41,962 nt of DNA from a virus, in the IMG/VR virus record IMGVR_UViG_3300035698_028846, positions 1 to 41,962 of that record. The stretch is one strand, 5' to 3'. Position 1 is the first letter of the stretch. The number at the start of each line of letters is the position of its first letter. Both the position numbers and the translations under genes were made by a program. The notes under the pieces are model-generated. The model was not told where the DNA came from and searched no databases. It worked only from the letters and a program-made list of their open reading frames with translations. Shown piece after piece: positions 18,045 through 39,812 of this stretch.

Positions 18045-19108
18045 AACACACCTCCTGTGGTGGTTGCGATGTCGCGGTAGACTTGACGCCAGTCCTGCCA
18101 TCGCGTGGCCATGTCGTGTCGCCGGGCGTCCTTGAGACCCTCCACTTGCAATGTTCGCCGCAAATGATTGTCCTCGATCAGCCTGCGCAACGCTCTGTCC
18201 CACGCTTCTGGTGTGTGCTTAACCAGTAGGCCGTTGTGGCGGTTCTGGACTGTGCCTCGGTACGACACACAGTTGGATGCAATCACCGCGCATCCCCCCA
18301 GCCTCTTGCCCACGGCTCTAGCAGCACACCAGCCCTCGATCGGCTTGATGGGGCTCTTCGAGCGGTTGAACTGGTCATCTGGATCAAGCGGGGCACACAG
18401 GATGTCTGCCTGAGCAAGCATCTCCGGGTACTGGCTGTAGTGGACTGGTGGTAGGAACCCTACCCCAAGCCCTTCCAGGTAGTCAGGTAGATACCCTCCC
18501 ACCAGAAGAGTCACTTCTGGGTAGTCCTCCAGCAGTCCGGGTAGCACTTCCTTCAGTACCTCCCAGTCGCGATAGTGGGTCTTGGTTCCCGCTAGCATGA
18601 TGGTCAGCCCATCAATCTCGCGCTTTGCCTGCCTTGCCGCCGCAGTGAACTTGTCGTATTCGATGGCGTTGGGCAAAACGTAGACCGGCTTGCCGCCACT
18701 CTCCTGCCTTGCCAGCGCCGCCAGTGTCTTGGTTGTAACGGTGACGGCGTCCACGTGGGCGATGTAGGGCTTCCAGGTACGGCCTGCCACCACGTCGGCC
18801 TCGCGGTACCTGCCACTGTAGTCATCGTCTGCCTCGTAGACTACCTTGGCTCCGTGCACCCGTAGAGCGTTGATGAGGCTTTCGCCAGCGTCTGGGTCCA
18901 CGGCCAGGGACCTGTGTAGGACAACTATGTCATTGCCGAACACGGGCTCCACGTCGTTGGTTTGCAGGAGGGCTGCAGCTCTTCGTAGGGTCATCCACGC
19001 GCAACTCTCCCCGCTGTTGTTGTTTATGTACATGAACGGCATGGTGATGCGGTAGATTTCTACCGCGCCTGCCATTCGTTTATTGCCGATCAGCCCGAGA
19101 ATGTTCAA
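18041..19108 (-). CDS. GT-B glycosyltransferase (GT4-like) in tail module
   Basis: The 355-residue protein has a GT-B layout. The N-terminal Rossmann-like half includes VVYEADDDYSGRYREADVVAG and a VLPNAIEYDKF segment typical of the domain junction. The C-terminal nucleotide-sugar half has TIMLAGTKTHYRDWEVL, LLVGGYLPDYL, LAQADILCAPLD and KPIEGWCAARAVG, followed by GCAVIASNCVSYRGTVQNRHNGLLV, the usual GT4 donor-binding region. The start is TTG behind AAGGAG at long spacing, which may keep its level low. It is the only enzyme inside the head-tail block and overlaps the tail tube start by four bases, so the tail tube or a neighbouring virion protein is a likely acceptor. Sugar and acceptor are unknown. 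Confidence 0.85.
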   Translation of the reverse strand: MNILGLIGNKRMAGAVEIYRITMPFMYINNNSGESCAWMTLRRAAALLQTNDVEPVFGNDIVVLHRSLAVDPDAGESLINALRVHGAKVVYEADDDYSGRYREADVVAGRTWKPYIAHVDAVTVTTKTLAALARQESGGKPVYVLPNAIEYDKFTAAARQAKREIDGLTIMLAGTKTHYRDWEVLKEVLPGLLEDYPEVTLLVGGYLPDYLEGLGVGFLPPVHYSQYPEMLAQADILCAPLDPDDQFNRSKSPIKPIEGWCAARAVGKRLGGCAVIASNCVSYRGTVQNRHNGLLVKHTPEAWDRALRRLIEDNHLRRTLQVEGLKDARRHDMATRWQDWRQVYRDIATTTGGVL

Positions 19109-24082: not shown

Positions 24083-24098
24083 GGGATACTCCCCGGGA

Positions 24099-24951: not shown

Positions 24952-26598
24952 TTACCTATGTCTTCCAGCGTTACGCCGCGCTACACGGGGATTGCGTTGT
25001 CTATTGCTGCGGCCTCGCGGCCCGGAGGGCTGCATGTCTTGTTCTTCGTCCCCGGCCTCTTGCTCATCAATGAGGAACAGGCGGTTCATTACCCCGCCAA
25101 TCATAAACAGGCATGATGCAACGTCCTGTTTCAACTTCTTGTCTGGCATACGCCAGTTGGCGAGCTGCATCCAGATACCCTGTACCTTCTTGGGCATTAG
25201 GAGCAGGACCTTACCAAGGATCAGCTTGAGAGCCAAAACCATCTGCATCTTCTGATGCTGCATGTTCAGGCCCTCCATCAGTAGCCCGCGCTGAGCGAAC
25301 ACCAGCTCGTCAAAGCCCTTCTGGACACCGGTGGCGTCGAAGGCTGCCCAGATCGGCTTGTAGGCTCTGTACCACTCGTCCATCTGGTTGATGAAGGGCC
25401 AGTAGGAGCCCCTCCCGTCAATCCAGTGAAACGCCGCCAGTTCTGCCGGCACATGCGGGAATCCTGTGACCTTTATCACCATCACCACGGCGCTGTTGCG
25501 GTGTGGCGGGGTACCCTGGCCGGGGTCTCCTACCAGGATGTAGCGGTCGAATGGACTGGCGGGCGTGACCCACTTGGTAACGCCAGCGCCCTGCGCCTCG
25601 GCCCGCTCATAGCCGGGCAGGTCGTTCGCCTGCGCGGACTCCATCATGTCGTCCAGTCCCGTGCACTGGCACGGCTTCAGCAACTCTCGAGTGAACTCTT
25701 TCCCCTTCGGGAGAGGGCGCTCAGACAACATCAGCTGCCGGCGCTTCTCTGGATCCTTGATGCGCCGTCCCATCGCGGCTATCTGGTCTGCCGTCAGGTA
25801 CGGGTTGTCGTAGGTGGTCGCCAGGATGGACATGTAGTACTGGGGCAGCTCCTCGGCCATGTCGAAGCGTTCCCACAACTCGGGGTCGTAGTCGGCGGTG
25901 CTCATCACAATGAGCTTGCCCAGCCGCCTGCGGCCGCCAATCTGGCCACGCATGCGTGAGCCAAGGTTGACCAGCAGCTCGTCCAGGTCGGTGTGGGCCA
26001 CTTCGTTGAGCTTGCCTGCCTCGTCTACGATCGCAACGTCACCAGACCAAGACAGGATTTTGCGCCCCTGCTCGTCGGCGCTCATGAACTCAATGGAGGA
26101 GCCGTTGTAGAAGACAATCTTGGGGTAGGGACGCTCCACCATCTTGACGATCATCTGGCTAACCCAGGTGGGGCGCTCGTCGCGGTTGTCATAGTCCACC
26201 AGTTCCTGGCGGATGGCGTCATACATCTGCTTTGACTGCCAGCCCACCGGGGCAAGGTCCATGGCCTTGAAGTTGGGGACCATGCAGCACCAATAGCAGA
26301 GAATGGCCCCAACGCCTACGGTCTTGCCGCTCCCAAAGCCAGCGATGATGGTCGCATCAAGGCGTCTATCGTGGGCGACGGCTAGCTGCCAGGGCAGGGG
26401 TATCCAGGGCACGTACTCATTTGGCTTCAGGTCCCAGTCGTCTGGAGACTTTCCTACCAAGCCTGGGCGCGGGACGCCATGGATGGGCGCGAAGTAGTGG
26501 CCAGTGAACGCGGCCATGCCACCGGTATCCAACTTGGTGGCAGCCTCCATCACCTGCCTGTCTGTGTCAGTTAGTTTGTAGCGCCCGCCATAAGCCAT
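24952..26598 (-). CDS. terL: Terminase large subunit
   Basis: The 548-residue protein has both enzyme domains of a large terminase. In the ATPase part, GFGSGKT (87-93) is Walker A and VAIVDEAG (188-195) is Walker B with the catalytic Glu. The likely coupling motif is VMSTADY (231-237). In the RNase H-like nuclease part, acidic residues lie in ILVGDPGQG (D358), AAFDATG (D421) and KLKQDVASC (D492). The C-terminus is basic and Arg/Asn-rich. ATG 26598 is behind AGGAGG. It pumps DNA into the capsid through the portal and cuts it. No small terminase subunit was recognised beside it. Confidence 0.92.
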   Translation of the reverse strand: MAYGGRYKLTDTDRQVMEAATKLDTGGMAAFTGHYFAPIHGVPRPGLVGKSPDDWDLKPNEYVPWIPLPWQLAVAHDRRLDATIIAGFGSGKTVGVGAILCYWCCMVPNFKAMDLAPVGWQSKQMYDAIRQELVDYDNRDERPTWVSQMIVKMVERPYPKIVFYNGSSIEFMSADEQGRKILSWSGDVAIVDEAGKLNEVAHTDLDELLVNLGSRMRGQIGGRRRLGKLIVMSTADYDPELWERFDMAEELPQYYMSILATTYDNPYLTADQIAAMGRRIKDPEKRRQLMLSERPLPKGKEFTRELLKPCQCTGLDDMMESAQANDLPGYERAEAQGAGVTKWVTPASPFDRYILVGDPGQGTPPHRNSAVVMVIKVTGFPHVPAELAAFHWIDGRGSYWPFINQMDEWYRAYKPIWAAFDATGVQKGFDELVFAQRGLLMEGLNMQHQKMQMVLALKLILGKVLLLMPKKVQGIWMQLANWRMPDKKLKQDVASCLFMIGGVMNRLFLIDEQEAGDEEQDMQPSGPRGRSNRQRNPRVARRNAGRHR

Positions 26599-26625: not shown

Positions 26626-27651
26626 TCACGCATCAAATATGCCCACAGAGTAGATCTCTTCCAGCCGGTCTATGATGGGGTCCCAGTCCAGATGCTTGTC
26701 AGCGTATGCCAGGGCCCCGATTGTCAGCTTGTGTATCAGTGAGTTTCTCTTGAGCAACAGCTTCCTGCCTGCCCGGAGAAGCTTGTCGTAGTTGTAGTTG
26801 ACGCGCAAGCAGTTCCTGCCGCCAATGAGATCATCGCTGCCCTCGATGATTGCCACAACGCTGGTGGTCCCGCAGGCCATCGCCTCCACAGGAGCACACG
26901 CTCTCCCCTCGTAGCGGCTGGCTTTCAACAGGAACAGTGCCTGGGAGTACATCTGGCGCATCTGCAAGGTGGTCGGCTTTAGCTGGAAGGAGTCGAACTC
27001 CCGTATGTACGGGTTGGACGTGGCCGCGTAGCCCCACAGCTTGACGCCAAACTCTTCCCGCAGTTGCATCGCCACCCGCCAGCCAATCTCTTCGACGTCC
27101 TTCGCCTGGTTGCGGGCATCCCCCTCTACGAGGATGGCGCGTTGTTTGTCTCCGTCAGGATAGAAGTCGTCTCGGTTTACGCCATTCCCGATGACGGCCG
27201 AGGGCAATTCCCACAGATCCCCCATGGTGTCTTGTAGCCATCGGGCTATGGTGATGACCTGGAAGCCGGCCTCCTTTGCTAGGGCGTAGGACGCCTTGGC
27301 GGCTCTGTGGCCAGCAGTCTGCGGGCCGAAGAACTCGTGCTCCATCATCTGCACGAAGTAGTAGCGGCATGGCTGCTCCCACCGCAGGTGCACCGGTATC
27401 TTGAGGGCGATGTCCACAGTCTGGTAGCCGGTGGCCACTACAGCGTCGAAGGGCTTGGCGTTGTAGAAGAACCCGAATGGGGCAATCGGCGCGTTCAGCT
27501 CCATCCACTTGGGCTTCTGGTGTCCCGGGGCCGCCACAGTGACGTCGTGCCCCCTGGCGGTCAGCCGATTGACGTGCTCGAAGATGATGCGGATCCCCCC
27601 GCAGGGGCCTACCCCAGGGGTCAGGTAGCAAATTCTCAGTGGCTCAGTCAT
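26626..27651 (-). CDS. GT4-type glycosyltransferase
   Basis: The 341-residue protein has GT-B hallmarks. The N-terminus CYLTPGVGPCGGIRIIFEHVNRL with GHDVTVAAPG is the acceptor-side start typical of GT4. VIGNGVNRDDFYP (about 154-166) is the domain crossover. A donor domain ends in LLKASRYEGRACAPVEAMACGTTSVV, the EX7E-like motif, and DLIGGRNCL. The start ATG follows GGGAGG and overlaps the end of the next cassette gene. It is the last gene of the cassette, next to the terminase. It probably adds a sugar from a nucleotide donor in the cytoplasm, with an unknown acceptor. Confidence 0.85.
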   Translation of the reverse strand: MTEPLRICYLTPGVGPCGGIRIIFEHVNRLTARGHDVTVAAPGHQKPKWMELNAPIAPFGFFYNAKPFDAVVATGYQTVDIALKIPVHLRWEQPCRYYFVQMMEHEFFGPQTAGHRAAKASYALAKEAGFQVITIARWLQDTMGDLWELPSAVIGNGVNRDDFYPDGDKQRAILVEGDARNQAKDVEEIGWRVAMQLREEFGVKLWGYAATSNPYIREFDSFQLKPTTLQMRQMYSQALFLLKASRYEGRACAPVEAMACGTTSVVAIIEGSDDLIGGRNCLRVNYNYDKLLRAGRKLLLKRNSLIHKLTIGALAYADKHLDWDPIIDRLEEIYSVGIFDA

Positions 27652-28333
27652 AGTGGCCTCCCTTGATCTGTTCCTTCACATAGATTGAACCGCCACGCTT
27701 GTGAGTGACACAGTAGTTGGTGGCGTGCCAGTGGTGTGTCACCATCGCCTTGTTCACAAATACGTACCGTGCCCCGGCCTGTACTGCGCGGAGATGGAAG
27801 TCCCAGTCAGTGGCTGGCCCAGCCTCGTTGGTGAAGCCCTTAACCTTGCGGACCAGGTCGGTGCGGAACAGGCACATGGGGAAGTTGATCCAGTTGTGCC
27901 GCTTGAGCATGTCCGTATCCATGGGCTCGCCGGCCGACTGTATGGGCTTGGGGACCTGTAGCTGCACGCAGTGGGCCACGTCTGCGGCGGTCTCCTCGAG
28001 GGTCTTGACCATCGTGGTGAGAAAGGACGCTCCCCACTCGTCATCATCCTCCAGGTTGGCAAAGTAGGCATGCCCCTCGTAGAAGTGGTGGAAGGCTTCG
28101 TTGAGAGCATAGCCCAGGCCGCGCTTGGGCAGTACCAGGAATCTGATCTTCGGGTGGTCCAGCACGCCGCTCAGAGCCTTGACATACTCGTCTGTGTTAA
28201 ACGACCCCCCATTCTTGGCGATGACCAGGTTCCAGTTAGTATACTTCTGGTGCAGGAGCGACTTCACCGCCCGGCAGCACATGTCGGGTCGGTTCAGTGT
28301 AGGAATAGCGACGAGAACCATTGGTCTTTTCAC
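27644..28333 (-). CDS. GT2-type glycosyltransferase (GT-A)
   Basis: The 229-residue protein shows the GT-A fold of family 2. VLVAIPTLNRPDMCCRAVKS and LVIAKNGGSFN form the nucleotide-binding start. ANLEDDDEW (about 91-99) is the DxD metal-binding motif. TNEAGPATDWDFHLRAVQAG is the usual ED/WD acceptor-side segment. The start is GTG behind GGAG. It overlaps the GT4 gene by eight bases, so the two products probably act in one pathway. It lacks membrane segments and so would work in the cytoplasm. Confidence 0.85.
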   Translation of the reverse strand: MKRPMVLVAIPTLNRPDMCCRAVKSLLHQKYTNWNLVIAKNGGSFNTDEYVKALSGVLDHPKIRFLVLPKRGLGYALNEAFHHFYEGHAYFANLEDDDEWGASFLTTMVKTLEETAADVAHCVQLQVPKPIQSAGEPMDTDMLKRHNWINFPMCLFRTDLVRKVKGFTNEAGPATDWDFHLRAVQAGARYVFVNKAMVTHHWHATNYCVTHKRGGSIYVKEQIKGGHYD

Positions 28334-28334
28334 G

Positions 28335-28532
28335 TCAACTCCTCTGGGCTGGCCGAAAATACGCGACCGTCCGGAAACGGTCTGCCTCCTCTTGGGTCAC
28401 GGTTTCGCAAGTAGGCTGGCCCAGCGCCACGTAGTCTTCCCAGTGCTTGATAGCCACTTTGCTCATAGAGTCGTCGCGCGCCATGAAGATGGTCGGCGCA
28501 TCTGCAACCTTGATACAACAGTCAAAATCCAC
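28335..28532 (-). CDS. Small unknown protein in glycan cassette, 65 aa
   Basis: The product starts at GTG behind AGGAGG and ends directly before the GT2 start. It contains CCIKVADAPTIFMARDDSMSKV and a helix IKHWEDYVALGQPT, with Asp-rich and aromatic residues, and has no membrane segment. The strong ribosome site and tight spacing argue it is real. It could be a small partner of the neighbouring transferases, but nothing in it identifies a family. Confidence 0.6.
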   Translation of the reverse strand: MDFDCCIKVADAPTIFMARDDSMSKVAIKHWEDYVALGQPTCETVTQEEADRFRTVAYFRPAQRS

Positions 28533-28546
28533 GTTTCCTCCTATGT

Positions 28547-29323
28547 CTAGCCGAACTTCGGCAACCAGTCGCTCAGCAGGTATCTGTAGTCCTTCGGTAC
28601 GTCCAGGTCATTCGAGCACACAGGGGCTCCTCCTGGCTCCAGCATGCGGTAGGGGGCCGCTTGCCTGAACACCTTTCCTTCTGGTGGCAGGCCGGCCTTG
28701 CCCCAGCGCCCCATTTCCAGGGTCCATCCCCACTTCTCGCGGTGGCGGTACTTGTCCCCCAGTCGGCGGTACATCCGCGCCGCCTCGGGCGTCAGCAGCG
28801 GCGTAATCACATGGCGGCCCTTTACCAACACTTGGCAGGGGGCCGGCTGGGCGAGAACCTCCGTCAGCCCCTCGTCTGACCACACGAAGTCGCACTGGAG
28901 TATCACCAACTGGTCCCACCAGTCGGTGCCAATCATGTCCAGGGACTGCATAGCCGAGTTGTCGTAGCTCTTCAGGTCGGGCTCGGGCATCAGCAATGGA
29001 ATGCCGTGCTCGGCAACATGCCGCAGCCGGTCGTAGGTCCAGGGCGGCTGGTCCACCTCTGCCATTGCCTCAGCCGGCAGGTTACTGGTGGGGTTGGCGA
29101 CACACTTCTTGAGAAACCCCGTGTACCGGCACCCCGGCCGTCCGATGGCGACGAAGACCTGGTAATCCAGTAGCTGTAACTGGTTGCTCAGGCGGCCAAC
29201 CGGCGTGTCCCCATACTCCCAGCCGATGGGCAACAGCGCTTCTGGGCAGCAGGGCGGGACGCCGATGAAGTTGTAGCCTACAGCCTTGTACCCCGCCGCG
29301 AGAATGATAGCAACTTTCTTCAT
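28547..29323 (-). CDS. Nucleotidyltransferase-like protein (sugar-phosphate type)
   Basis: The 258-residue protein begins KKVAIILAAGYKAVG, like the LAAG opening of sugar-1-phosphate nucleotidyltransferases, followed by EALLPIG and GRLSNQLQLLDYQVFVAIG. A VILQCDFVW segment sits where the product-binding Asp is expected. The usual GxGxR and PK residues are altered, so activity is uncertain. A related protein is encoded at 30986-31738: both share PWT...G.PLLMP.P and a C/GDxVF/W strand. The gene overlaps the GT9 gene by ATGA. A role in making an activated sugar or alcohol for the transferases is likely but not proven. Confidence 0.65.
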   Translation of the reverse strand: MKKVAIILAAGYKAVGYNFIGVPPCCPEALLPIGWEYGDTPVGRLSNQLQLLDYQVFVAIGRPGCRYTGFLKKCVANPTSNLPAEAMAEVDQPPWTYDRLRHVAEHGIPLLMPEPDLKSYDNSAMQSLDMIGTDWWDQLVILQCDFVWSDEGLTEVLAQPAPCQVLVKGRHVITPLLTPEAARMYRRLGDKYRHREKWGWTLEMGRWGKAGLPPEGKVFRQAAPYRMLEPGGAPVCSNDLDVPKDYRYLLSDWLPKFG

Positions 29324-30096
29324 GACTGACTCCTTTTGTATGCCGGATCGAACGTGTTCTCCTCGTCCGGGGCCGGGCCGTCGCCCAGCAGGTGTACCAC
29401 CATCGGAACGATGCGTCTGGGGGCCCAGCGCCAGCCCGCTACCCAGCTATTGGGTACGTACTGCGATTCTGGGCCAGACCGCTGCTTGCGGTTGAAGATG
29501 ACCACCATGGGCCGCTCCAGCGCCGCGCCCACATGCAGGAAAACCGAATCTATCGTTATCAAACAACGCGCCTTGGCCACCACGGCTGCTGCCTCCCTGA
29601 TAGCCAGGGGGGCATTGTCTACTCCCTGGCAGAGGAGGGGGCCGTTGTCAATTTGCTTCACGTGATAGCCCTTGCCTACAAGGAACGCTGCCAAGCCGGC
29701 CATGCGCTTGTAGGACCGGCCGCCGTGCGGGTACTTGTTGGCCATGGCCACGTCACATCCCTGGGCCGCCTCTATCTCCTCCGGCAACAGGTATAGCCGG
29801 GGAAGGCTCCGCTCCACACCCAGCGTGTCGCACTGGGCAAAGCACATCCAGGTGTGTTTATCCCAGCAGTCCGCGTGGCACACACGGAAAATGGGGTCGC
29901 CCTTGTCCCAGTCGAATGGCCGGCCCCACAGAACGATTTCCTCTATCCGTGGGTCGTGCAAGATCAGTTGCTCATAGCCGGGCGTGACCATGAAGGAGAC
30001 CTCTGCACCTGGGAACCGCTTCTTCAGCCCTGGGATCGCGGCGGTTAGGCTGAGCACGTCGCCGTGCCCTGCTGGCCGTCTAAGTTGGATCCGCAT
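29320..30096 (-). CDS. GT9 heptosyltransferase-like glycosyltransferase
   Basis: The 258-residue product fits family 9 (ADP-heptose:LPS heptosyltransferase type). RRPAGHGDVLSLTAAIPGLKKRFP and VSFMVTPGYEQLI with DPRIEEIVLW form the N-terminal half. The C-terminal donor half ends in ARCLITIDSVFLHVGAALERPMVVIF, the (D)SG.xH.A-like region. It is shorter than bacterial heptosyltransferases (about 330). It follows a DUF4254-like small gene often seen with such enzymes. Transfer of a heptose-like sugar is expected, but the donor is not defined. Confidence 0.85.
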   Translation of the reverse strand: MRIQLRRPAGHGDVLSLTAAIPGLKKRFPGAEVSFMVTPGYEQLILHDPRIEEIVLWGRPFDWDKGDPIFRVCHADCWDKHTWMCFAQCDTLGVERSLPRLYLLPEEIEAAQGCDVAMANKYPHGGRSYKRMAGLAAFLVGKGYHVKQIDNGPLLCQGVDNAPLAIREAAAVVAKARCLITIDSVFLHVGAALERPMVVIFNRKQRSGPESQYVPNSWVAGWRWAPRRIVPMVVHLLGDGPAPDEENTFDPAYKRSQS

Positions 30097-30304
30097 ACAC
30101 CTTGCCCCCTATGTCGCGCTCTCCCAGCCGCCTGTCTATCGCCCTCACCAGCTCGTTGCGCTGCCCATTGGCGACCTGAATAGCCTTGGCCTCGGCCAGT
30201 GTGGCCGTGCCATCTGTGACACGGTCTATCAGGTGCCAGATGCGGATGTTGATCACAGTCAGCTCGTCTATCATCTGCCCCAGCGTCTTCGTCTCAATTC
30301 CCAT
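30080..30304 (-). CDS. DUF4254-like small protein linked to glycosyltransferases
   Basis: The 74-residue protein reads LGQMIDELTVINIRIWHLIDRV, then EAKAIQVANGQRNELVRAID. This helix pair, with a conserved ELx(I/T)N and N.QRN.L...ID pattern, resembles the DUF4254-type proteins that accompany heptosyltransferase genes. It starts at an ATG behind AGGAGG and overlaps both neighbours. It may act as a regulator or partner, and the family's biochemical role is unknown. Confidence 0.65.
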   Translation of the reverse strand: MGIETKTLGQMIDELTVINIRIWHLIDRVTDGTATLAEAKAIQVANGQRNELVRAIDRRLGERDIGGKVYADPT

Positions 30305-30989
30305 CTTGCCTCCTGAGTATCATGCTGGCAAAGGTGTAGTAGTGCACGAAGTTGCCAGCGTAGGTGTAGTCGTGCTCGCCGCCGAACCAGTCGAAGCCTC
30401 TCTGCCGGCCAATCTCATACAGGGCCATCATCTCGGCCTCGCCAAACTTGATGTTCTTGGGCTTGTCGGGGTGGTAGTCTGTCGTGATCGCCACAAGGCC
30501 TCCGGGGTTGACCAGGTCGAGCATTCTATTGAAGAACCTTACTCGCTTGGCCGCGTCCCGGTCGCTGGTGGCAATCCGCTTCGATGCGTCTGCCGAGACG
30601 TGCTCTATGACGCTGATGGACACAACGGCGTCGAACTTCTCGTTAGAGACGTACTCACCAGGGAAGAGCTGCTGGACGTAGGGCAGGGAGATGCCGAGCC
30701 GCGCCTCTTGCTCCGACGTCCAGTCGTGGCAATCCTTGCGGTCAACCTGCATTATGTCCATGTCGAGCATGGCCGCTGCTGGTGCGAACAGGGAGGCTCC
30801 CCCGCCGATCTCGAGGACGGTCTCCGCCCCGTTGGCTACCAGCGCGGTCAGCACCAACCCGTACTCCCAGGCGCGGTGCGGGTGGTCGAACCTGTACGGG
30901 ACGCCCGCTAGGCCATGCCTGACATCGAGCACATGCGGCACCTCGGCAATGTCGTAGGTGTTTGATTGCAGTGTCTGGGAATAGATCAT
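30294..30989 (-). CDS. Class I SAM-dependent methyltransferase
   Basis: The 231-residue protein has motif I ETVLEIGGGASLFAPAAAMLDMDIMQVDRKD, with Asp at the end of strand 2. KFDAVVSISVIEHVSADASK is the motif IV region and LDLVNPGGLVAITTD is the post-IV segment. The C-terminus (HYYTFASMILRR) closes the fold. It lies between the DUF4254-like and a nucleotidyltransferase-like gene, so a sugar or glycan intermediate is a plausible substrate. ATG 30989 follows GAGGAGG. Confidence 0.85.
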   Translation of the reverse strand: MIYSQTLQSNTYDIAEVPHVLDVRHGLAGVPYRFDHPHRAWEYGLVLTALVANGAETVLEIGGGASLFAPAAAMLDMDIMQVDRKDCHDWTSEQEARLGISLPYVQQLFPGEYVSNEKFDAVVSISVIEHVSADASKRIATSDRDAAKRVRFFNRMLDLVNPGGLVAITTDYHPDKPKNIKFGEAEMMALYEIGRQRGFDWFGGEHDYTYAGNFVHYYTFASMILRRQDGN

Positions 30990-31738
30990 ACTGGGTCCTC
31001 CTCTGCCAGGGCGAGAATGTTCTTCCAGGAGTGGTGGCTCACCTCTATCCAGTCCTCCATCATCCAGTCAAAGACATCCTTGCGCTCGCCCCAGACCTTG
31101 CTGGGGGCGCAGGTTCCGCGCCTGGCCCAGACCAGGGACTGGTCCTGGTTGGGCAAGCTCCGGAGAAAGCTGAGGAACTTCATAAAGGCTCCCCTGGTCA
31201 GGAACTCTATAGAGTGCTTTGTCCAGAACCAGAATTGGGAAGGCCATGCGGTCCAGTCCAGCAGGTACTGTAGGAACCCTGTCCTGAAGACATAGTCGCC
31301 AGCAGTGATGACAATGCGATCGCAGTCCTCGGCAAGTATCGCCGGCGCCATCTTGAGCAGCGTGGTCCAGCAACTCTGCCCCTTAGCGTGGGGGTCGGGC
31401 ATCAAGAGGGGGAAGCCGCCCTGCTCGATGACGTAAGTCACCTGCTCGTCAGTCCAGGGGCTCTTCCCATAGTCGCTGACGCCCACTCCATAGACCTCTG
31501 CGTCGTGATACTCAACCACGGTGGGGTCGCAGCCGGGGTTCCCCATGCCCACGAAGACCTTGTCTACCCCCATCTTCTTGTACCACTGTGCCATCTGCCT
31601 GGAGAGGACGGTGTGGTCTGGGGCGAGTTGCCAGAACATCTCTGGTGTCCTCTCTGGGATAGGGTAGCCCTTCTTGCGTGTCCTGACTTCCTCTACGGGA
31701 TCCCAGCCCGCGCCGGTGATCGCAACGACGGTCTTCAT
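30986..31738 (-). CDS. Second nucleotidyltransferase-like protein
   Basis: The 250-residue protein starts KTVVAITGAGWDP and shares with the 28547-29323 product a PWT...V...GGFPLLMPDP segment and a RIVITAGDYVF strand, in the position of the Asp strand of nucleotidyltransferases. The G.G.R signature is again absent. Pro-Glu rich PIPERTPEMFW near residue 28 may be an active-site variant. It overlaps the methyltransferase gene by ATGA. The two probably are paralogues that arose by duplication and may have diverged in substrate. Confidence 0.55.
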   Translation of the reverse strand: MKTVVAITGAGWDPVEEVRTRKKGYPIPERTPEMFWQLAPDHTVLSRQMAQWYKKMGVDKVFVGMGNPGCDPTVVEYHDAEVYGVGVSDYGKSPWTDEQVTYVIEQGGFPLLMPDPHAKGQSCWTTLLKMAPAILAEDCDRIVITAGDYVFRTGFLQYLLDWTAWPSQFWFWTKHSIEFLTRGAFMKFLSFLRSLPNQDQSLVWARRGTCAPSKVWGERKDVFDWMMEDWIEVSHHSWKNILALAEEDPV

Positions 31739-32148
31739 ACCTGGCTCCTGATGCGCCCCTTGATGGCGCTGGACGACTCCAGCGGGCAGTAGGGAACCAC
31801 GATGACCTTGCCCCCCATGCCCGCCATGACTTGCCTGACCACCTCGACTGCTGCAGGTGCGTGGCTAGAACTCTCCATCAGCACGTCTGGCCTGATGGCC
31901 AGGACGTTGTCCAGGGGAGAGTAGGTTGTCTGGGCCACTGCCAGGTCAACGTACTTGATGGCCCGGGCGATGCGTAGCCGTTGGCCGAAGGGCAGCACGG
32001 GCTTGCCCTTCATCTCCATCACGGCCTCGTCGGTTAGGATGCCGACTATCAGCTTGCCATCCGGCCCAGCGATGGCCTTGGAGTTTCTTAGCATCTCCAA
32101 GTGTCCATCGTGGAGGATGTCCAGGACGTAGTAGGAGTAAACTAGCAT
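31735..32148 (-). CDS. TagD/RfaE-type cytidylyltransferase-like protein
   Basis: The 137-residue protein has the HxGH motif as LDILHDGHLEML (residues 9-20), following a VYSYY strand. The next strand IVGILTDEAVMEMKGKP and PFGQRLRIARAIKYVD match the layout of glycerol-3-phosphate and related cytidylyltransferases, and SSSAIKGRI resembles the ISTT-type closing motif. Such enzymes make CDP-activated alcohols or ADP-sugars. It would supply an activated precursor to the transferases. Start ATG overlaps the next gene by four bases. Length fits the family. Confidence 0.8.
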   Translation of the reverse strand: MLVYSYYVLDILHDGHLEMLRNSKAIAGPDGKLIVGILTDEAVMEMKGKPVLPFGQRLRIARAIKYVDLAVAQTTYSPLDNVLAIRPDVLMESSSHAPAAVEVVRQVMAGMGGKVIVVPYCPLESSSAIKGRIRSQV

Positions 32149-32495
32149 TATCCGAATAGCCCCCCTTCCTCTTCGCCCGTAAAGCTGTCAACTATCCAGG
32201 CCCAGAGCCCCATCTTGATGTGCCAGTAGCGGTAGCACATGTAGATGCAGTAGCCCACAGTAAACACGCCAACGCTCCAGAAGATGGTGTTTACCCAGTC
32301 GCCGTTGTAGGCGTTGTGGTACACCTGCAGAACGTAGATGAACCAGGAAACGATGTAGAACTTCCGTGACACGTCACGGGCAGACTGGCGGCGGCGAACC
32401 TTTGCGCCCTGCCAGTAGTACTTGAACCTCGTCGGTACACCCAGTACCAGAATAAGCCACGCAACGATCTTAGCGATAATACCCAGAATGTGCAT
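32148..32495 (-). CDS. Small membrane protein, PQ-loop-like
   Basis: The 115-residue product has about three membrane segments: IIAKIVAWLILVLGVP, FYIVSWFIYVLQVYHNAYNG and TIFWSVGVFTVGYCIYMCY. Between the first two lies a basic stretch (KVRRRQSARDVSR). The order resembles small PQ-loop/SemiSWEET transporters, with a Pro before a basic loop and then 'vS..f', but the Pro-Gln pair is absent. ATG 32495 follows AAGGAGAGGG. It could transport or anchor a glycan intermediate. Classification is tentative. Confidence 0.55.
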   Translation of the reverse strand: MHILGIIAKIVAWLILVLGVPTRFKYYWQGAKVRRRQSARDVSRKFYIVSWFIYVLQVYHNAYNGDWVNTIFWSVGVFTVGYCIYMCYRYWHIKMGLWAWIVDSFTGEEEGGLFG

Positions 32496-32561
32496 TTCCC
32501 TCTCCTTATAATGGATTGTTTGCCGCGAATAAAGCCGGGGTGTCGTGGGGTTCTTATCTTC

Positions 32562-33242
32562 TCATGCCGTTGTCCCCCAGTAGATGCGCATGTACTCGTT
32601 GGCCCACGCGGGGCCGTTGTCTCTCATCCAGTAGGACAGGAGGTTGACCTCGTGAATGTCTTCGGGGATGCCGTGGAACCGGAACCGTGCAAACTCCACG
32701 AACTTCTCCTCTGTGCACTCCCCTGCCTTGATGTAGGGGCCGGTCATGTCCAGTGGCAGGAAGTCTGCCCCGGTCCTCACCGCGACGTCGGCTATGTGGT
32801 CGCCCAGCGCGGCGTTGCCCAACGACAGCAGGGCGATAATCCGGTGCTGCCCGTTGGCCAGGAACAGGCCCTCCGGCACGGGGTTGTTCGACGTCGTGGT
32901 GGTAGGGTTCACCACATGCTTGAAGTAGATCTTGTCTTCGGTGGCGTCCCAGCCGTCCTGGTCGATGCTACGGCGGTAGGTGACAAGTTTTCTCAGGCGG
33001 GCCATGTAGTACCGCTCAACCCGGTACTCCCGCTCTGGGCCTTCTGGCAGGGGGTCCAGCATGCCGATGGCCTGGTACACGGGATCTGCAATGACAACGT
33101 GGCGAAAGATGGCGGAGTCGCGGGCAGGCACCATCATCGACAGCAGGTCTTCGTGCAGGGCGCTCAACTCTTGGAGAGCGGCCGCCTGGTCCCACACATC
33201 GTACCGCAGAGGGAACAGGACTTCACTCAGTTGGATAGGCAT
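32562..33242 (-). CDS. ParB/sulfiredoxin-like protein in glycan cassette
   Basis: The 226-residue protein contains LFLANGQHRIIALLSLG (about 145-161), the G-x-H-R signature strand-helix of ParB/sulfiredoxin-type domains. ParB nucleotide-binding folds and phosphotransferases share it. The N-terminus is helical, with a VIADPVYQAIGML segment, and the C-terminus is mixed. No DNA-binding helix-turn-helix is visible. It lies between a small membrane protein and a sulfotransferase. Possible roles are nucleotide binding or kinase-like activity on a small molecule. The true function is unknown. Confidence 0.6.
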   Translation of the reverse strand: MPIQLSEVLFPLRYDVWDQAAALQELSALHEDLLSMMVPARDSAIFRHVVIADPVYQAIGMLDPLPEGPEREYRVERYYMARLRKLVTYRRSIDQDGWDATEDKIYFKHVVNPTTTTSNNPVPEGLFLANGQHRIIALLSLGNAALGDHIADVAVRTGADFLPLDMTGPYIKAGECTEEKFVEFARFRFHGIPEDIHEVNLLSYWMRDNGPAWANEYMRIYWGTTA

Positions 33243-33885
33243 ATCGTTTCATCTCCTGTGCTTGTCTGTAGAGCTCGCAATCGTCTTGGTTCAGTCTCTC
33301 GATCTCGGACACGAGCGCCTGGTTGGCCAGCAGCGCTTGCTTCATAGCAGGGTTGTTGGTCTTGTTAGTGTGGACCACCGGGTAGCCCGGCACCCATCCC
33401 AGCATCTCGGCCAGGCGGGCCAGGTCCTGCGTGAACCTCTCGGCCAGGCCAACGAAGGTAAACAGCTTCAGGTTGCCACCTGCTGTGAAGAACGTCATCA
33501 GGTTCCGCTTTGTGGGCATGTTAATGTACTCATAGATGCCGCAGGGGTCAATGATGCTATGAGTCAGGTCGTGGATGTAGGCAGAGATGACCCTCGGCAC
33601 CGGGGCGCGCAGCCAGGTCACGCGGGGAACGTCGGGGAACAGCCCGTCGTATAGCTGTACCGGCACGTGGTCTGCCAGCCAGTTGACATTGGGCGGTAGC
33701 CGCTTCTTCATAGCCGCGTCCCACGTTGTCTTGCGCAGGGTGTAGTCTGCGCGCAGCAGGGTGTCTGTCTCTGGCCGGAGCCCGATGACGCGGTAGGCGT
33801 TGTACTCCTCGCCATAGACGTACCTCACGGCCTCTGCAAAGGACACCCCGCTTGTCTTGGGGATATGCACAAAGATCAGGTTCAC
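33223..33885 (-). CDS. Sulfotransferase (PAPS-dependent, Sulfotransfer_2 type)
   Basis: The 220-residue protein starts with IFVHIPKTSGVSF (4-16), the 5'-phosphosulfate loop of PAPS-dependent sulfotransferases. VTWLRAPVPRVISAYIHDL (89-107) is the 3'-phosphate loop with the usual RxPxxRxxSxY pattern. Other helices are as in Sulfotransfer_2. The start is GTG, which overlaps the previous stop by one base. It would sulfate a glycan, using PAPS from the host. Acceptor is not known. Confidence 0.85.
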   Translation of the reverse strand: MNLIFVHIPKTSGVSFAEAVRYVYGEEYNAYRVIGLRPETDTLLRADYTLRKTTWDAAMKKRLPPNVNWLADHVPVQLYDGLFPDVPRVTWLRAPVPRVISAYIHDLTHSIIDPCGIYEYINMPTKRNLMTFFTAGGNLKLFTFVGLAERFTQDLARLAEMLGWVPGYPVVHTNKTNNPAMKQALLANQALVSEIERLNQDDCELYRQAQEMKRYAYPTE

Positions 33886-35045
33886 TACTCTAGCCCTCCC
33901 CGATAAACGTAGTAGGGCTCGTCACCGAGCCAGAAGTCGTCATCAATCAAGCCAGCCCGCTTGCACTGCTGGTAGATCACCGTGCCGGGGAAGACCCAGG
34001 TGGCTCCCACGCTGCCCATGTCGTCGGGCTGGAGCCTCTGGAGAAAACTCGCAGTCTCTCGATCGGTCTCTGGCGTGGTGCCCGGAAAGTTCTTGATCAT
34101 CAGCGCCCTGAAGTGAATCCCCGCCTTCCGGCAAGCCTCGCGTCCCTCAAGCATTGCCTCCAGGTCAATGCCCTTCTTCATCCTTCGCAGAATTGCTGGA
34201 GAGCCACTCTCGACGCCAAAGGCAAGTTGGTAGCAACCGGCGCTTGCCATGCGGCACGCGAGATCTGTGTCTATCTGGTCGGCGCGGGCGTTGCCAACCC
34301 AGGAGAAGTTGTACTGGTCAAGCATGTCGCAAAGCTCCATGGTGGCCTGGCGGTCCTTGGTCAGACTGTCGTCCTGAAAGCCCAAGTGTCGTGCTCCCAT
34401 GTCCCACAGGTGAGCCAGGTGGTCTGCCATCCACGCCGCGCCATGGGCTCGCGGCTCGCCGTTCACCCACCAGGCTGAGCAGAATGTGCAGTGCCCAGTG
34501 CAGCCACGGCCAAGGAGGACGGAGACACGAGGGATCCTTGTTAAGTCGTGGCCTCGGAGCACGCTGTATTTCTTGGCAACCCGGGCAGCATGGAGTGTAA
34601 AGTCTATTTTCCCCCAGGCAGGTAAGGGCATAGCGTCCAGATCCTCAATTCGCATCCTGATAATCTGGGGCAAGTCTTGACCCTCACAAATCGCTTTCCA
34701 GGCTAGCTCGCCATCACCGACAACGAAGTGGTCGATGAAGTCGCCGTAGTGCTCGACCATCTGCTGTAGACACGTTGCAACGTGGGGGCCGCCTGCAACA
34801 GTCACTGCGCCGCGCTCCTTGGCCCTGCGCAGGTAGTCCAAGCTGTTATGCCGACCCCTGGTATAGACAGGCACGCCTACCACGCGAGGGTGTAGCTTCT
34901 CGATGCCAGCCAGGCCCGCGCTTGTGTGCAGTGCGTCGTCGTAGATTTCCGTCTCCTTGTCCATTGCGGCTATGTAGAGCAAGCCCAGGGGAACAGGGGC
35001 GTAACGCTGCATGGCCATAGATGACGGGTTTATCAACAGGTTCAT
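33885..35045 (-). CDS. B12-binding-type radical SAM enzyme
   Basis: The 386-residue protein has two parts. Residues about 20-115 form a cobalamin-binding-like Rossmann region with VVGVPVYTRG, AVTVAGGPHVAT and HFVVGDGE, typical of radical SAM enzymes with an N-terminal B12 domain. GRGCTGHCTFCS (179-190) holds the three cysteines (C182, C186, C189) for the 4Fe-4S cluster in CxxxCxxC spacing. Later LAFGVESGSPAILRRMKKG is the common SAM-binding-barrel strand. It overlaps neighbouring genes by ATGA and TAGTG. It could methylate an unreactive carbon of a sugar or a peptide. Anaerobic hosts commonly use such enzymes. Confidence 0.85.
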   Translation of the reverse strand: MNLLINPSSMAMQRYAPVPLGLLYIAAMDKETEIYDDALHTSAGLAGIEKLHPRVVGVPVYTRGRHNSLDYLRRAKERGAVTVAGGPHVATCLQQMVEHYGDFIDHFVVGDGELAWKAICEGQDLPQIIRMRIEDLDAMPLPAWGKIDFTLHAARVAKKYSVLRGHDLTRIPRVSVLLGRGCTGHCTFCSAWWVNGEPRAHGAAWMADHLAHLWDMGARHLGFQDDSLTKDRQATMELCDMLDQYNFSWVGNARADQIDTDLACRMASAGCYQLAFGVESGSPAILRRMKKGIDLEAMLEGREACRKAGIHFRALMIKNFPGTTPETDRETASFLQRLQPDDMGSVGATWVFPGTVIYQQCKRAGLIDDDFWLGDEPYYVYRGGLE

Positions 35046-35584
35046 TCTGGCTTCTCCAGTACTGCGTAGACGAAGGTCTCGTCGGACCAGGCGAAGGGGC
35101 GGGGTGTGGCTCTGTACGGCGCGAGCAGTTCTTTTATGCCTTTCCAGTCAAAGCGCCACAAGTGGTCGGCCTCCTTGTCCCAGGTGTCCACCCACGGGGT
35201 TGTGATGAGCAGGACGCCCCCCGGAGCGGTGACGCGGTAGCACAAATCCACGGCTTGCTGGGGGTCCTCCACATGCTCAATGGTCTCCATAAACAGGACG
35301 GTGTTGTATTGCTCCTCGTGGCTCTCCAGGTCGTACAGGTCCATCTGCAGCGTTCGGATCCCCTCGGGCGGCGGCGGGTCAATCGGGAGGATGTCTAGCA
35401 TCGTGACGGTGCACCCCTGGCGGTGTAGCCAGATAGCGAATGCCCCCTGGCCGCTGCCAACATCAAGGGCCGTGCCAGGCTTGTAGTTCTCGTGAACGAA
35501 CATGAGCCTCTGGTGTCCCTTCAGGCAGTGCAGGTTGTGGCCCAGCACGGGGGGCTCGGCCTCGTCGCGTAGTCTAAGTCTCAT
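35042..35584 (-). CDS. Class I SAM-dependent methyltransferase
   Basis: The 180-residue product has motif I TALDVGSGQGAFAIWLHRQG, followed by VTMLDI as the Asp strand, METIEHVEDPQQAVDLCYRV and APGGVLLITTP. It is short, as for a catalytic core without extra domain. The last part WSDETFVYAVLEKP ends the fold. It overlaps the radical SAM gene by ATGA and the next methyltransferase gene, so all three are probably coupled. ATG 35584 follows GGGAGG. A small-molecule or glycan substrate is likely. Confidence 0.85.
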   Translation of the reverse strand: MRLRLRDEAEPPVLGHNLHCLKGHQRLMFVHENYKPGTALDVGSGQGAFAIWLHRQGCTVTMLDILPIDPPPPEGIRTLQMDLYDLESHEEQYNTVLFMETIEHVEDPQQAVDLCYRVTAPGGVLLITTPWVDTWDKEADHLWRFDWKGIKELLAPYRATPRPFAWSDETFVYAVLEKPE

Positions 35585-36140
35585 TCAATCCTCCCAGGTG
35601 CACGGTCGCGGCTATCTGGTCGCCACGGGGCGACAGGCTCACGTCCGCTGTCCCATACATGAAAAGCAAGCTGGTGAGCTGCTCAAGCGAAAAGCGCCAG
35701 AGGTGGCTGGGGTCGTCTTGATGATACTCGTGAGGCACAACGATTACAAGTCGCCCGCCAGGCTTTGTGACCCGCATTGCCTCCCTCAGCAGAAGATGCG
35801 GGGCGCGGGCATGCTCCAGCACGTGGGAGCAGGTGCACCCGTCAAACGACGCCGAGGCAAACGGCAGGACCGTAACATCACCGCGCACCCACTGCAACTT
35901 GTTCGGCGGAAGGGTCTGCGCCATCTGCAGTGCGACTGGGCTATAGTCAATCCCCACGATCCTCAACGGGTAGTCGCGGGCCACGTACCAAGCCTGCTGC
36001 CCACAGCCACAGCCTAGATCAAGCCAGCGCCCCTGCCGGCAGTGCTCTCTCATGGTCCGTGTAGTGAAGTGGTTCTTCCAGAACGCTAGCCGAATCCCAC
36101 GCTCTGCAAACACCTCATCATAGTAGGCGCTGCCCTTCAT
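35574..36140 (-). CDS. Class I SAM-dependent methyltransferase
   Basis: The 188-residue protein starts KGSAYYDEVFAERG, the usual N-terminal helix of UbiE/Methyltransf_11-type enzymes. Motif I is WLDLGCGCGQQAWYVARDYP with RIVGIDYSPVALQMAQ. FDGCTCSHVLEHARAPHLLLREAMRVTKPGGRLVIVVP is the motif IV and post region. ATG 36140 with GGGAG upstream is chosen, where it overlaps the end of the previous gene by four bases. A longer in-frame start at 36167 is less likely. It probably acts on a glycan intermediate. Confidence 0.85.
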   Translation of the reverse strand: MKGSAYYDEVFAERGIRLAFWKNHFTTRTMREHCRQGRWLDLGCGCGQQAWYVARDYPLRIVGIDYSPVALQMAQTLPPNKLQWVRGDVTVLPFASASFDGCTCSHVLEHARAPHLLLREAMRVTKPGGRLVIVVPHEYHQDDPSHLWRFSLEQLTSLLFMYGTADVSLSPRGDQIAATVHLGGLNET

Positions 36141-36847
36141 TCGATCTCCCTGATTGTCTCTAGCCAAGCGCTCGATGCCTGATAGGTCACCCGCCCTGGC
36201 AAGGGGACTGGCGTCAGTTCCAGCCTGTCTGTCAGGCGGCTGGGGTCGCTGAAGCCAGACCCGCTGATCGTCGCATAATGCAGGGCCTTCCTCCGCAGCC
36301 GTGCCTCAGCAAAGTAGCTGAAGTGGACGATGGCAATCCCAGTAGTAACCGATACTCTAGCACATGGCCCGGTCAATGTCGGCTGCTCGTGGATGCGGCG
36401 CTGCCACGTAGTCTCCGGCGTCTTTCTGAGGAGGCGAAGGTGGAAGGTCTCGAAGTCTATGGGCAGGCAGGTGTCCCGCTCCTTGAAGATGTGGTAGACA
36501 GGCACCTTCCAGGCAGCGCACCTGTCCTGGCTGTTTTCAAGCAGCCCCCTGAGACGGCTAACCATCCCGTCGCTCGGCAACTCGTCGGGGTCCCACTTGA
36601 GCACCCAGGCGCCGTCTGGTACCTGGCTCAGCATAATATTGCGCAGGTCCCCATAGTGGGGCGGGTCGGCCTGCTGGTTGAGGATGACGTCCACGTCGTC
36701 GTCGCACTGCTCAAGCCACTCGCGGGAGCCGTCCGTGGAGCCGTTGTCCATTATGATGACGTGGTCGCAGAACGCCTGCAGCCGCTCGGTGACGTAGGGG
36801 AGGAACGGCCGGTCGTTGTAGACCATCATGTTGGCGAAGAGTTTCAT
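36137..36847 (-). CDS. GT2 glycosyltransferase (WaaE-like)
   Basis: The 236-residue protein starts at ATG 36847. KLFANMMVYNDRPFLPYVTERL and VIIMDNGSTDGSREWLEQ form the GT-A nucleotide fold, and WVLKWDPDELPSDGM is the metal-binding DxD with the usual DE. RLLRKTPETTWQRRIHEQP and a later VHFSYFAE are typical of the WaaE/GT2_4 set. An upstream in-frame start at 36922 overlaps the prior gene and has no ribosome site. One base separates it from the prior stop. It transfers a sugar to an unknown acceptor. Confidence 0.85.
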   Translation of the reverse strand: MKLFANMMVYNDRPFLPYVTERLQAFCDHVIIMDNGSTDGSREWLEQCDDDVDVILNQQADPPHYGDLRNIMLSQVPDGAWVLKWDPDELPSDGMVSRLRGLLENSQDRCAAWKVPVYHIFKERDTCLPIDFETFHLRLLRKTPETTWQRRIHEQPTLTGPCARVSVTTGIAIVHFSYFAEARLRRKALHYATISGSGFSDPSRLTDRLELTPVPLPGRVTYQASSAWLETIREIE

Positions 36848-36848
36848 A

Positions 36849-37439
36849 TCAGCACACCATCTCCATTCTGCGAACCTTCTGGTAGAATAGCTCTTTGTTC
36901 CTGTCGTGGGGAGCCTCTGCAATGTCTTTCAGGGCCCGCCGCGTCCTGCCATGTAAATGCTCGATGGGCAGCTTGTCGGTCACGTGCAGGGCGAACCCCA
37001 GGCGCTGGGCACGCCAGCAGAAGTCCACGTCCTCAAAGCTATTGCGGAATTGCTCGTCAAAGCCACCAAGCAGATCCCAGAGCCCGCGATGTATGCTTAT
37101 CAGCCAGCCGGCCAACCAGCCACCATGGGGGTTCCAAAGGTCTGGCCCCTCAAGGGGTGCGTTCCCCAGGTACTGCCGGTATGGCCCCGAAACGATAATG
37201 TCATTGTTGATGAGGAGAAGCCGGTCGCCGCTGGCCGCCCGGGCCCCTGCGTTGTAGGCAGTCGCAAAGGGGACCAGGGTGTCGATGTTCACGTCCCCCC
37301 GCCCAAGGCCTCCGTTGTCCACGACGATTATCTCATCGCGGGGATCGCAGAACTCGCGCAGGCCGTCCACCGCAGGGATAGTTAGCCTGTCCCACAGGTT
37401 CACACCAGCCGACACGATGACGATGGATAGTTTATCCAT
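36849..37439 (-). CDS. GT2 glycosyltransferase (rhamnosyltransferase-like)
   Basis: The 196-residue protein starts at ATG 37439: MDKLSIVIVSAGVNLW, EIIVVDNGGLGRG, then NAGARAASGDRLLLINND with the DxD-like ND pair, GWLISIHRGLWDLLGGFDEQF and FEDVDFCWRAQRLGFALHV. These are the standard motifs of GT2 rhamnosyltransferase-like enzymes, including the ED/WR acceptor motif. It is shorter than many (about 300). The long upstream in-frame extension is discarded because it runs antisense-like over the methyltransferase gene. It overlaps the methyltransferase gene by eight bases. Confidence 0.85.
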   Translation of the reverse strand: MDKLSIVIVSAGVNLWDRLTIPAVDGLREFCDPRDEIIVVDNGGLGRGDVNIDTLVPFATAYNAGARAASGDRLLLINNDIIVSGPYRQYLGNAPLEGPDLWNPHGGWLAGWLISIHRGLWDLLGGFDEQFRNSFEDVDFCWRAQRLGFALHVTDKLPIEHLHGRTRRALKDIAEAPHDRNKELFYQKVRRMEMVC

Positions 37440-37995
37440 TGGGCTGCTTGATTGCCTGCAGCACCACCCGCAGGTCGTCGGCGTACCACTGCGCTCCCCA
37501 GGGAGCCCTCGCCTTTGCCCTGGTGTGGTAGTCATACACCCTGAACCTGGCATCAAAGTCGTAGGGGGGCATCTCTGCGCCGTTGATGAACTGGCCGGGG
37601 CAGAAGTAGAGGAACGTCCCGATGTTCCAGGGCTGCTTGTGGGTGGGGTCCTGCACGTAGCCGGGGCAGATCCCGTCCGGTACGGAGATGATGACCAGCG
37701 CCCCATGCTTGCAGATGCGCCAGATCTCCTCCATCGTCCCTACCCGGTCCTCCAGGTGCTCCAGCACCTGCAGGGCGTAGACGACGAGGAAGCTATCGCT
37801 GGCCAGGGTCCAGGGGAAGTCCTCCAGGTCCATCAGGTAGTCGGCGTCCGACGTCGGCGACATGTCCACGCCCCACGCGCCGGGTTGCTTGTCGTTGCCG
37901 CAGCCCAGGTCAATGATCGGGGGGCGTGGCGCGCCTGGAAGGCTGGCCTGGGCGACCAGGGCGGCGGCGATCTCTTCGGGGGTGTACTCATTCAT
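37432..37995 (-). CDS. Class I SAM-dependent methyltransferase
   Basis: The 187-residue protein has IIDLGCGNDKQPGAWGVDMSPTSDADYLMDLEDFPW, a motif I and Asp strand as in small glycan-associated methyltransferases, and ALQVLEHLEDRVGTMEEIWRICKHGALVIISVPD for the later strands. Start ATG 37995 lies behind GAGG. An in-frame extension to 38052 has no ribosome site. It is the first gene of the glycan cassette in transcription order. Confidence 0.85.
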   Translation of the reverse strand: MNEYTPEEIAAALVAQASLPGAPRPPIIDLGCGNDKQPGAWGVDMSPTSDADYLMDLEDFPWTLASDSFLVVYALQVLEHLEDRVGTMEEIWRICKHGALVIISVPDGICPGYVQDPTHKQPWNIGTFLYFCPGQFINGAEMPPYDFDARFRVYDYHTRAKARAPWGAQWYADDLRVVLQAIKQPNG

Positions 37996-38131: not shown

Positions 38132-38385
38132 GGCTCCTCCTCTATGAGGATCTCCAGGTCCCTGGGCATCACCTCCACGCTCAGGCACAGCGCCTCGCCA
38201 GCCGCCATCGTCAGGGTGGCGGCCCGGCAACGTAGCGGCTCGCCATCTATCAGAAGCTCCTTGACCCGGTACAGCCTCTCCCTGATCCGCAGGGCCGCTG
38301 CATCGTGCTCCTCGTACAATGGGACTCGGTCCAGGACTATTGTCCACCGGCGTGTCTTGGTTGGTTCCCTATTTGCCTTGCTCAC
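38119..38385 (-). CDS. Small unknown protein, 88 aa
   Basis: The product starts at GTG behind AGGAGG and overlaps both neighbours. It is charged, with a basic start (MSKANREPTKTRRW), then strands and helices (TIVLDRVPLYEEHDAAAL, RIRERLYRVKELLIDGEPL, ALCLSVEVMPRDLEILIEEE). No Cys cluster or membrane segment is seen. It may be a small regulator or part of an early function set. No family was recognised. Confidence 0.6.
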   Translation of the reverse strand: MSKANREPTKTRRWTIVLDRVPLYEEHDAAALRIRERLYRVKELLIDGEPLRCRAATLTMAAGEALCLSVEVMPRDLEILIEEEPCKT

Positions 38386-39808: not shown

Positions 39809-39812
39809 TTGC

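Follow-up and report, generated by a model that had tools for sequence, protein, structure and literature searches.

The window, a stretch of 41,962 bases analyzed at its full length (IMG/VR record IMGVR_UViG_3300035698_028846), contains a cassette of 18 tightly coupled open reading frames (ORFs) on the minus strand at 26626-37995. It is located directly before the terminase, portal, capsid and tail genes, all of which lie on the same strand. The predicted enzyme content supports the proposal of a first-pass annotation, made from the sequence alone, that the cassette could make and decorate a glycan. We consider it about an even chance that it is a late-operon virion glycosylation set of a tailed phage, whose cytosolic enzymes decorate the glycan. 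A cytidylyl/adenylyltransferase-type enzyme, perhaps together with the paralogues NTa and NTb, would activate an unusual sugar or polyol phosphate. Soluble glycosyltransferases of the types GT4, GT2 and GT9 and an additional enzyme encoded at 18041-19108 would assemble a short chain on the capsid or tail proteins themselves, during their synthesis. Three or four methyltransferases, a B12 radical SAM enzyme and a sulfotransferase would decorate the chain, GT4 and GT2a forming the conserved base of the pathway and the remaining genes a variable decorating set. From the sequence we infer late expression, the acceptor, the order of the steps, their union in a joint pathway and the sulfation and methylation of the glycan.

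A coupled gene cassette in front of the terminase gene

Because the window is the entire viral record, which is classed as linear, it represents a phage fragment and no chromosome. All of its main genes are on the minus strand. The last gene of the cassette, GT4, stops 27 bp short of the large terminase gene. Thirteen of the 17 ORF junctions overlap, two are spaced by +1 and one by +14, while the widest gap is +66, in agreement with the annotated block of at least 16 coupled, mostly overlapping genes. Nearly every ORF is preceded by a Shine-Dalgarno-like GGAG or GGAGG, and the overlaps fit a single polycistronic transcription unit. Scans for sigma-70 promoters and terminators gave signals no better than shuffled sequences. 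The GC content (0.54-0.65) and codon usage of the cassette match those of the structural genes, with a correlation of relative synonymous codon usage of 0.98.

Gene assignments were made by scans with Pfam, PHROG and NCBIfam models, comparing bit scores with family cut-offs (Table 1). The five glycosyltransferases described before (GT4, three GT2 and GT9) are right in kind. GT2c, whose start was set at 37439 after correction, is weak, and GT4 remained under its cut-off, but its orthologue in the related contig L014 passed it (PF13692, 31.9 bits). The short GT9 also matched TIGR02201 (E 6e-11) over the donor-binding segment. Members of the GT4, GT2 and GT9 families use nucleotide sugars as donors. 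Four methyltransferases had been named, of which MTb, MTc and MTd exceeded the cut-off and MTa was just under it. The cytidylyltransferase, sulfotransferase and B12 radical SAM assignments held. Sugar or polyol phosphates are what CTP_transf-like enzymes activate; PAPS serves as the donor for Sulfotransfer_2 enzymes, and enzymes of the B12 radical SAM type carry out methylations or rearrangements at unactivated carbons. The sulfotransferase, assigned by 24.1 bits vs a cut-off of 22 and a clear N-terminal HIPKTSG, is probable, not certain. By contrast, the two nucleotidyltransferase-like proteins NTa and NTb matched no Pfam, PHROG or NCBIfam model; they are paralogues of each other only (29% over 126 amino acids, E 4e-9, BLASTP). 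The AlphaFold model of NTb was unusable (pLDDT 39) and was not used. The first gene list was, moreover, incomplete, as it overlooked the DUF4254-like gene, the 65-aa ORF, the NGQHR and membrane proteins and the glycosyltransferase outside the cassette. For the NGQHR protein, neither Pfam, PHROG nor NCBIfam gave a match, and its AlphaFold model (pLDDT 36) was likewise unusable and left aside.

The radical SAM protein is nearest to HpnJ, the PhpK P-methyltransferase and AprD4 among the NCBIfam models, each far under its equivalog cut-off, and its nearest solved structure is AprD4 (6fd2), a sugar deoxygenase-type enzyme. The nucleotidyltransferase at 31735-32148 (phrog_7878, E 9e-15; TIGR02199, E 5e-18; PDB 5x3d, E 3e-12) is equally near HldE-C and the Fom1 cytidylyltransferase. 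These matches do not point to particular substrates. Scores for ADP-heptose enzymes stayed below the equivalog level (HldE-C, 65 bits vs 181; heptosyltransferase, 42 vs 170), so that the HldE-C-like and heptosyltransferase-type proteins belong, by their predicted relationship, to the same superfamilies without being equivalogs.

Hydropathy allows membrane segments only in the product of 32148-32495, and all cassette glycosyltransferases lack transmembrane segments. A SemiSWEET/PQ-loop type, considered by eye for the small membrane protein, was dropped since neither a Pfam family nor a PDB match was found. No Pfam match to a flippase, polymerase or polyprenyl initiating transferase and no polytopic protein were detected in the cassette. 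Direct cytosolic transfer would suit a set of glycosyltransferases without transmembrane segments that is not accompanied by such enzymes. A Gtr-type O-antigen seroconversion set (GtrA, GtrB and a Gtr-specific protein) was not found, the glycosyltransferases having no hydrophobic segment and the small membrane protein no family. An anti-phage defence system was rejected because PADLOC models, run on ten proteins, detected none; the lone match (E 0.006) is meaningless.

Table 1. Predicted features of the cassette and of the structural module in the window (bit scores are followed by the family cut-off where given)
Feature	Position	Strand	Evidence
MTd, methyltransferase	37432..37995	-	PF08241 28.7 bits vs 21.2; PF13489 28.2 vs 27
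GT2c, GT2-like glycosyltransferase, weak	36849..37439	-	PF00535 17.9 bits vs 23.3
GT2b, GT2 glycosyltransferase	36137..36847	-	PF13704 39.6 bits vs 27.5; PF00535 32.1 vs 23.3
MTc, methyltransferase	35574..36140	-	PF08241 85 bits
MTb, methyltransferase	35042..35584	-	PF13489 67.6 bits
B12-binding radical SAM protein, CTGHCTFC cluster motif	33885..35045	-	PF04055 53.5 and PF02310 37.4 bits, over cut-off
Probable sulfotransferase, N-terminal FVHIPKTSG	33223..33885	-	PF03567 (Sulfotransfer_2) 24.1 bits vs 22
Protein with NGQHR stretch, ParB-like by eye only	32562..33242	-	no family match
Small membrane protein, only one in cassette	32148..32495	-	hydropathy maximum 2.46
Nucleotidyltransferase, HldE-C/TagD/Fom1 cytidylyltransferase type, HDGH motif	31735..32148	-	PF01467 37 bits vs 21
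NTb, paralogue of NTa	30986..31738	-	BLASTP vs 28547-29323
MTa, probable methyltransferase	30294..30989	-	PF13489 26.4 bits vs 27, just under cut-off
DUF4254-like small protein	30080..30304	-	PF14063 24.3 bits vs 27, E 3e-5
Short GT9 (heptosyltransferase-type) glycosyltransferase, 258 aa	29320..30096	-	PF01075 26.5 bits vs 22
NTa, N-terminal IILAAG, also found in sugar nucleotidyltransferases	28547..29323	-	paralogue of NTb
65-aa ORF	28335..28532	-	relative at same place in L005, phmmer E 9.5e-9
GT2a, GT2 glycosyltransferase, conserved beside GT4	27644..28333	-	PF00535 65 bits
GT4-type glycosyltransferase adjoining terminase	26626..27651	-	PF13692 23.7 bits vs 27, under cut-off
Terminase large subunit (anchor gene)	24952..26598	-	phrog_2 E 1e-19
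Portal	22592-24145	-	PHROG model
Major head protein (capsid)	20456-21808	-	PHROG model
Further glycosyltransferase between two structural genes	18041..19108	-	phrog_7162 E 7e-23; PF13692 34 bits vs 27
Tail protein	16965-18203	-	PHROG model
Virion structural protein	2788-3633	-	PHROG model

Fixed and changing genes among related phages

Queries with the terminase and capsid proteins retrieved 30-odd related viral contigs (L-numbers denote these contigs or loci). GT4 lies directly before the terminase gene in L005, L014 and L038 and also in L004 and L006, where it is cut by the contig end (41-57% identity); L004 and L005 count as one phage because their GT4 ends are identical. GT2a precedes GT4 in L005 and L014 (51-53% identity). 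Beyond GT2a, L005 carries the 65-aa ORF followed by the tail end of an unrelated gene, L014 two genes with sulfotransferase-like products that stay below the PF13469 cut-off of 27 (23.7 and 15.9 bits). L038 differs again: it contains a HAD phosphatase gene, an ORF judged GIY-YIG-like by eye, a gene without assignment and one of the sulfatase family. Searches of the viral contigs with the radical SAM and sulfotransferase genes and, as single queries, with other cassette genes found no related loci. The gene-set comparison that had been called for thus yielded GT4 at the terminase in five other contigs and GT2a in two, while the rest varies, and the relatives point to one clade with a GT4-GT2a base and an exchangeable remainder. 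A content beyond GT2a that is not shared with L005 or L014 would agree with a collection of cargo genes that are unrelated and serve no common pathway. On the other hand, 18 coupled genes with mutually related functions, a codon usage that is the phage's own and the recurrence of the GT4-GT2a pair make such a collection very unlikely.

The same relatives bear on the origin of the cassette. An assembly join with host DNA was rejected on the terminase side, since GT4 adjoins the terminase in these five other contigs. The first-pass annotation had described the cassette as phage-borne and had named host chromosomal genes next to a prophage end as the refuting case. Its description agrees with a window that is a whole viral record and with the terminase, portal, capsid and tail genes that follow, and a host join is unlikely on the far side as well, where the flanking genes have phage relatives. 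A 39% relative of 38369-38761 directly follows the terminase gene in L027, and a relative of 38929-39345 precedes it in L017. Hence, the upstream side of the cassette is, judging from these matches, likewise bordered by phage-type genes. The product of 38369-38761 is small, has an HEMVH motif and appears metallopeptidase-like by eye; 39569-39856 encodes a zinc-ribbon protein (PF09723, 34.2 bits vs a cut-off of 34.4). Between 40160 and 41962 the minus-strand genes are not clear, the GC skew turns positive and plus-strand ORFs appear, so that transcription may diverge there. A terminase profile search of 84,980 genomes gave a single match, a 4-kb contig of an Acidobacteria metagenome-assembled genome without the cassette. 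In 297 Acidobacteria genomes, the NT paralogues had no match and the terminase occurred only in that contig. By tblastn, the isolate phages of the collection encode nothing similar to the terminase, the capsid protein or the tape-measure protein, which places the phage lineage, as far as these proteins tell, far from isolates.

The glycosyltransferase at 18041-19108 was compared in 21 related loci holding both conserved structural neighbours. Seven of them possess the gene, with a gap between the neighbours of 866-929 bases (913 in the window). In 13 loci including L014 the neighbours abut and the site is empty, so that a lineage-wide gene was rejected. The remaining locus (L032) harbors an unrelated insert of about 660 bases, flanked by relatives of 19117-19758 and of 16965-18203. 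Since L014 possesses the cassette only and L015 the 18041-19108 gene only, the two glycosyltransferase sites are independent. GT4 was detected neither in L015 (69 kb) nor in those more distant relatives whose contigs extend several kb beyond the terminase gene on its upstream side.

Sugar transfer genes occur at still other positions of structural modules, among them members of the GT4 family in two phages (L040 and L042) that are otherwise different. In L040, a 29% relative of GT4 is located after the major head protein gene and before tail-sheath-like genes (named by eye); behind it come a gene without assignment, one for a HAD hydrolase and a Stealth_CR2-like gene (4560-5303; 29.6 bits, under the cut-off). 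L042 has a fusion of a GT4 relative with a methyltransferase, immediately in front of a gene that by eye encodes a protease-capsid protein. Three distant terminase relatives encode a protein of 486-489 aa with a C-terminal methyltransferase after the portal (L019, 6588-8048; L027, 14901-16367; L033, 3692-5161). The N-terminal half of this protein is glycosyltransferase-like by eye only and matched no model. Thus, sugar and methyl transfer genes appear to have entered the structural modules of several phages independently. A 535-aa protein resembling Ro60/TROVE by eye is encoded in a 69-kb relative (L047, 8702-10309).

The proposed acceptor of the glycan

The main argument for a virion acceptor is positional, because sugar and methyl transfer genes sit in the structural modules of several phages. 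The window itself encodes its glycosyltransferases, and these are coupled to the structural module by the 27-bp distance to the terminase gene and by the second gene inside the module. Several points weigh against virion glycosylation. Adjacency to structural genes indicates shared regulation at most, and some of the glycosyltransferases that phages encode next to head genes could have host glycans or DNA as their targets. The decorating set is larger than the consulted papers describe for virion glycosylation. Furthermore, the cassette is dispensable, as the 69-kb relative L015 does without it. The full proposal is that the phage coats its capsid or tail with a glycan that is methylated and sulfated and whose formation involves a B12 radical SAM enzyme, and that a conserved GT4-GT2 pair at the terminase is accompanied by decorating genes that can be exchanged. 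It is put forward tentatively and would more probably fail than hold.

Since several of the genes are of the lipopolysaccharide type, the strongest rival is remodelling of the host surface, by which an envelope glycan would be made or decorated during infection for superinfection exclusion or for release of progeny from receptor-bearing debris. The GT9, HldE-C-like and DUF4254 genes resemble bacterial heptose and lipopolysaccharide genes, the content past GT2a differs among relatives as in surface-glycan loci, and the cassette includes a small membrane protein. A Stealth_CR2-like gene beside the GT4 relative of L040 and the sulfatase-family gene of L038 point in the same direction. However, a flippase, polymerase, ligase or polytopic glycosyltransferase was not seen in the cassette, and the late structural position as well as the relatives with glycosyltransferases inside the structural module argue against this function, which we regard as unlikely.

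It is also conceivable that the glycosyltransferases add sugars to modified bases of the phage genome. It is well established, and cited in PMC12619734, that phage glycosyltransferases can glycosylate DNA, and GT2a matched the TET-associated glycosyltransferase (TAGT) model near its threshold (26.9 bits vs a cut-off of 27.5). This match was not seen in the GT2a orthologues of L005 and L014, though, and in the PDB the GT2a profile fits bacterial polysaccharide enzymes and chondroitin synthase best. In the window and 12 related records, which are incomplete, searches gave no homologue of TET/JBP or of thymidylate synthase, the TET search having had no positive control. As sulfotransferase and radical SAM genes would not be expected either, DNA hypermodification is quite improbable. 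A free small molecule, in particular a phosphonate-type metabolite, was considered because a cytidylyltransferase and a B12 radical SAM enzyme are paired as in fosfomycin biosynthesis. The nearest solved relative of 31735-32148 is indeed the Fom1 cytidylyltransferase domain, and the radical SAM protein matched the PhpK P-methyltransferase family with E 1e-27, though far under the cut-off. PEP mutase was not seen, however, HldE-C fits the nucleotidyltransferase equally well, and at least five glycosyltransferases would be left unexplained, which renders this product extremely improbable.

Relation to known glycan systems

Virion glycosylation in mycobacteriophages was reportedly described by Freeman et al. 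in 2023. As cited in PMC12619734 and PMC11600133, phage enzymes glycosylate the capsid and tail-tube proteins of mycobacteriophages, and cluster O phages carry three glycosyltransferase genes after an O-methyltransferase gene. Phage-encoded soluble glycosyltransferases and, for cluster O, a methyltransferase gene alongside are shared with the window. The window has far more genes, with predicted nucleotide-sugar-type, sulfotransferase and B12 radical SAM enzymes among their products. A block in the Arthrobacter phages Mimi, Racecar, Talia1610 and Atuin encodes three glycosyltransferases, one of them related to that of the L038 structural module, and a nucleotidyltransferase with 45% identity over 70 aa to that of the window. 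Unlike the cassette, it lies away from the terminase gene and has a UDP-glucose dehydrogenase, while a sulfotransferase, radical SAM enzyme and methyltransferase are not annotated; the membrane proteins beside the nucleotidyltransferases of the window and Mimi are unrelated. In Escherichia phage phAPEC8 and its relatives, four tandem glycosyltransferase genes fall into the same broad group (28% identity to that of L038), but they lie beside replication genes and their block has no decorating enzymes. Bacterial lipopolysaccharide heptose genes (HldE, GT9, DUF4254) show a similar combination to the GT9, HldE-C-like and DUF4254-like genes of the window, in which, by contrast, GT9 is short, the full pathway is missing and the context is that of a phage.

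Thus, glycosylation of phage virion proteins and multi-gene glycan blocks in isolates are already known, and the latter limit the earlier statement that the cassette is unusual. Its unusual features are the size of the gene set, the presence of a sulfotransferase and a radical SAM enzyme, and the location at the terminase with an exchangeable remainder. No isolate phage of the collection encodes a protein like the sulfotransferase or the radical SAM enzyme (tblastn), and no phage paper combining both genes was found in the literature collection searched. If virion glycosylation is correct, an uncultured phage lineage would spend about 11 kb on a variable, decorated particle glycan, and the known extent of the process, a few glycosyltransferases in phages of actinobacteria, would grow to a complete pathway with a sulfation step. 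This would suggest diversifying selection on phage surface chemistry, for example by binding to host surfaces or by recognisers of virions in the environment. More such sets could be sought by sequence, with the conserved GT4-GT2 pair and its changing neighbours as a clear handle.

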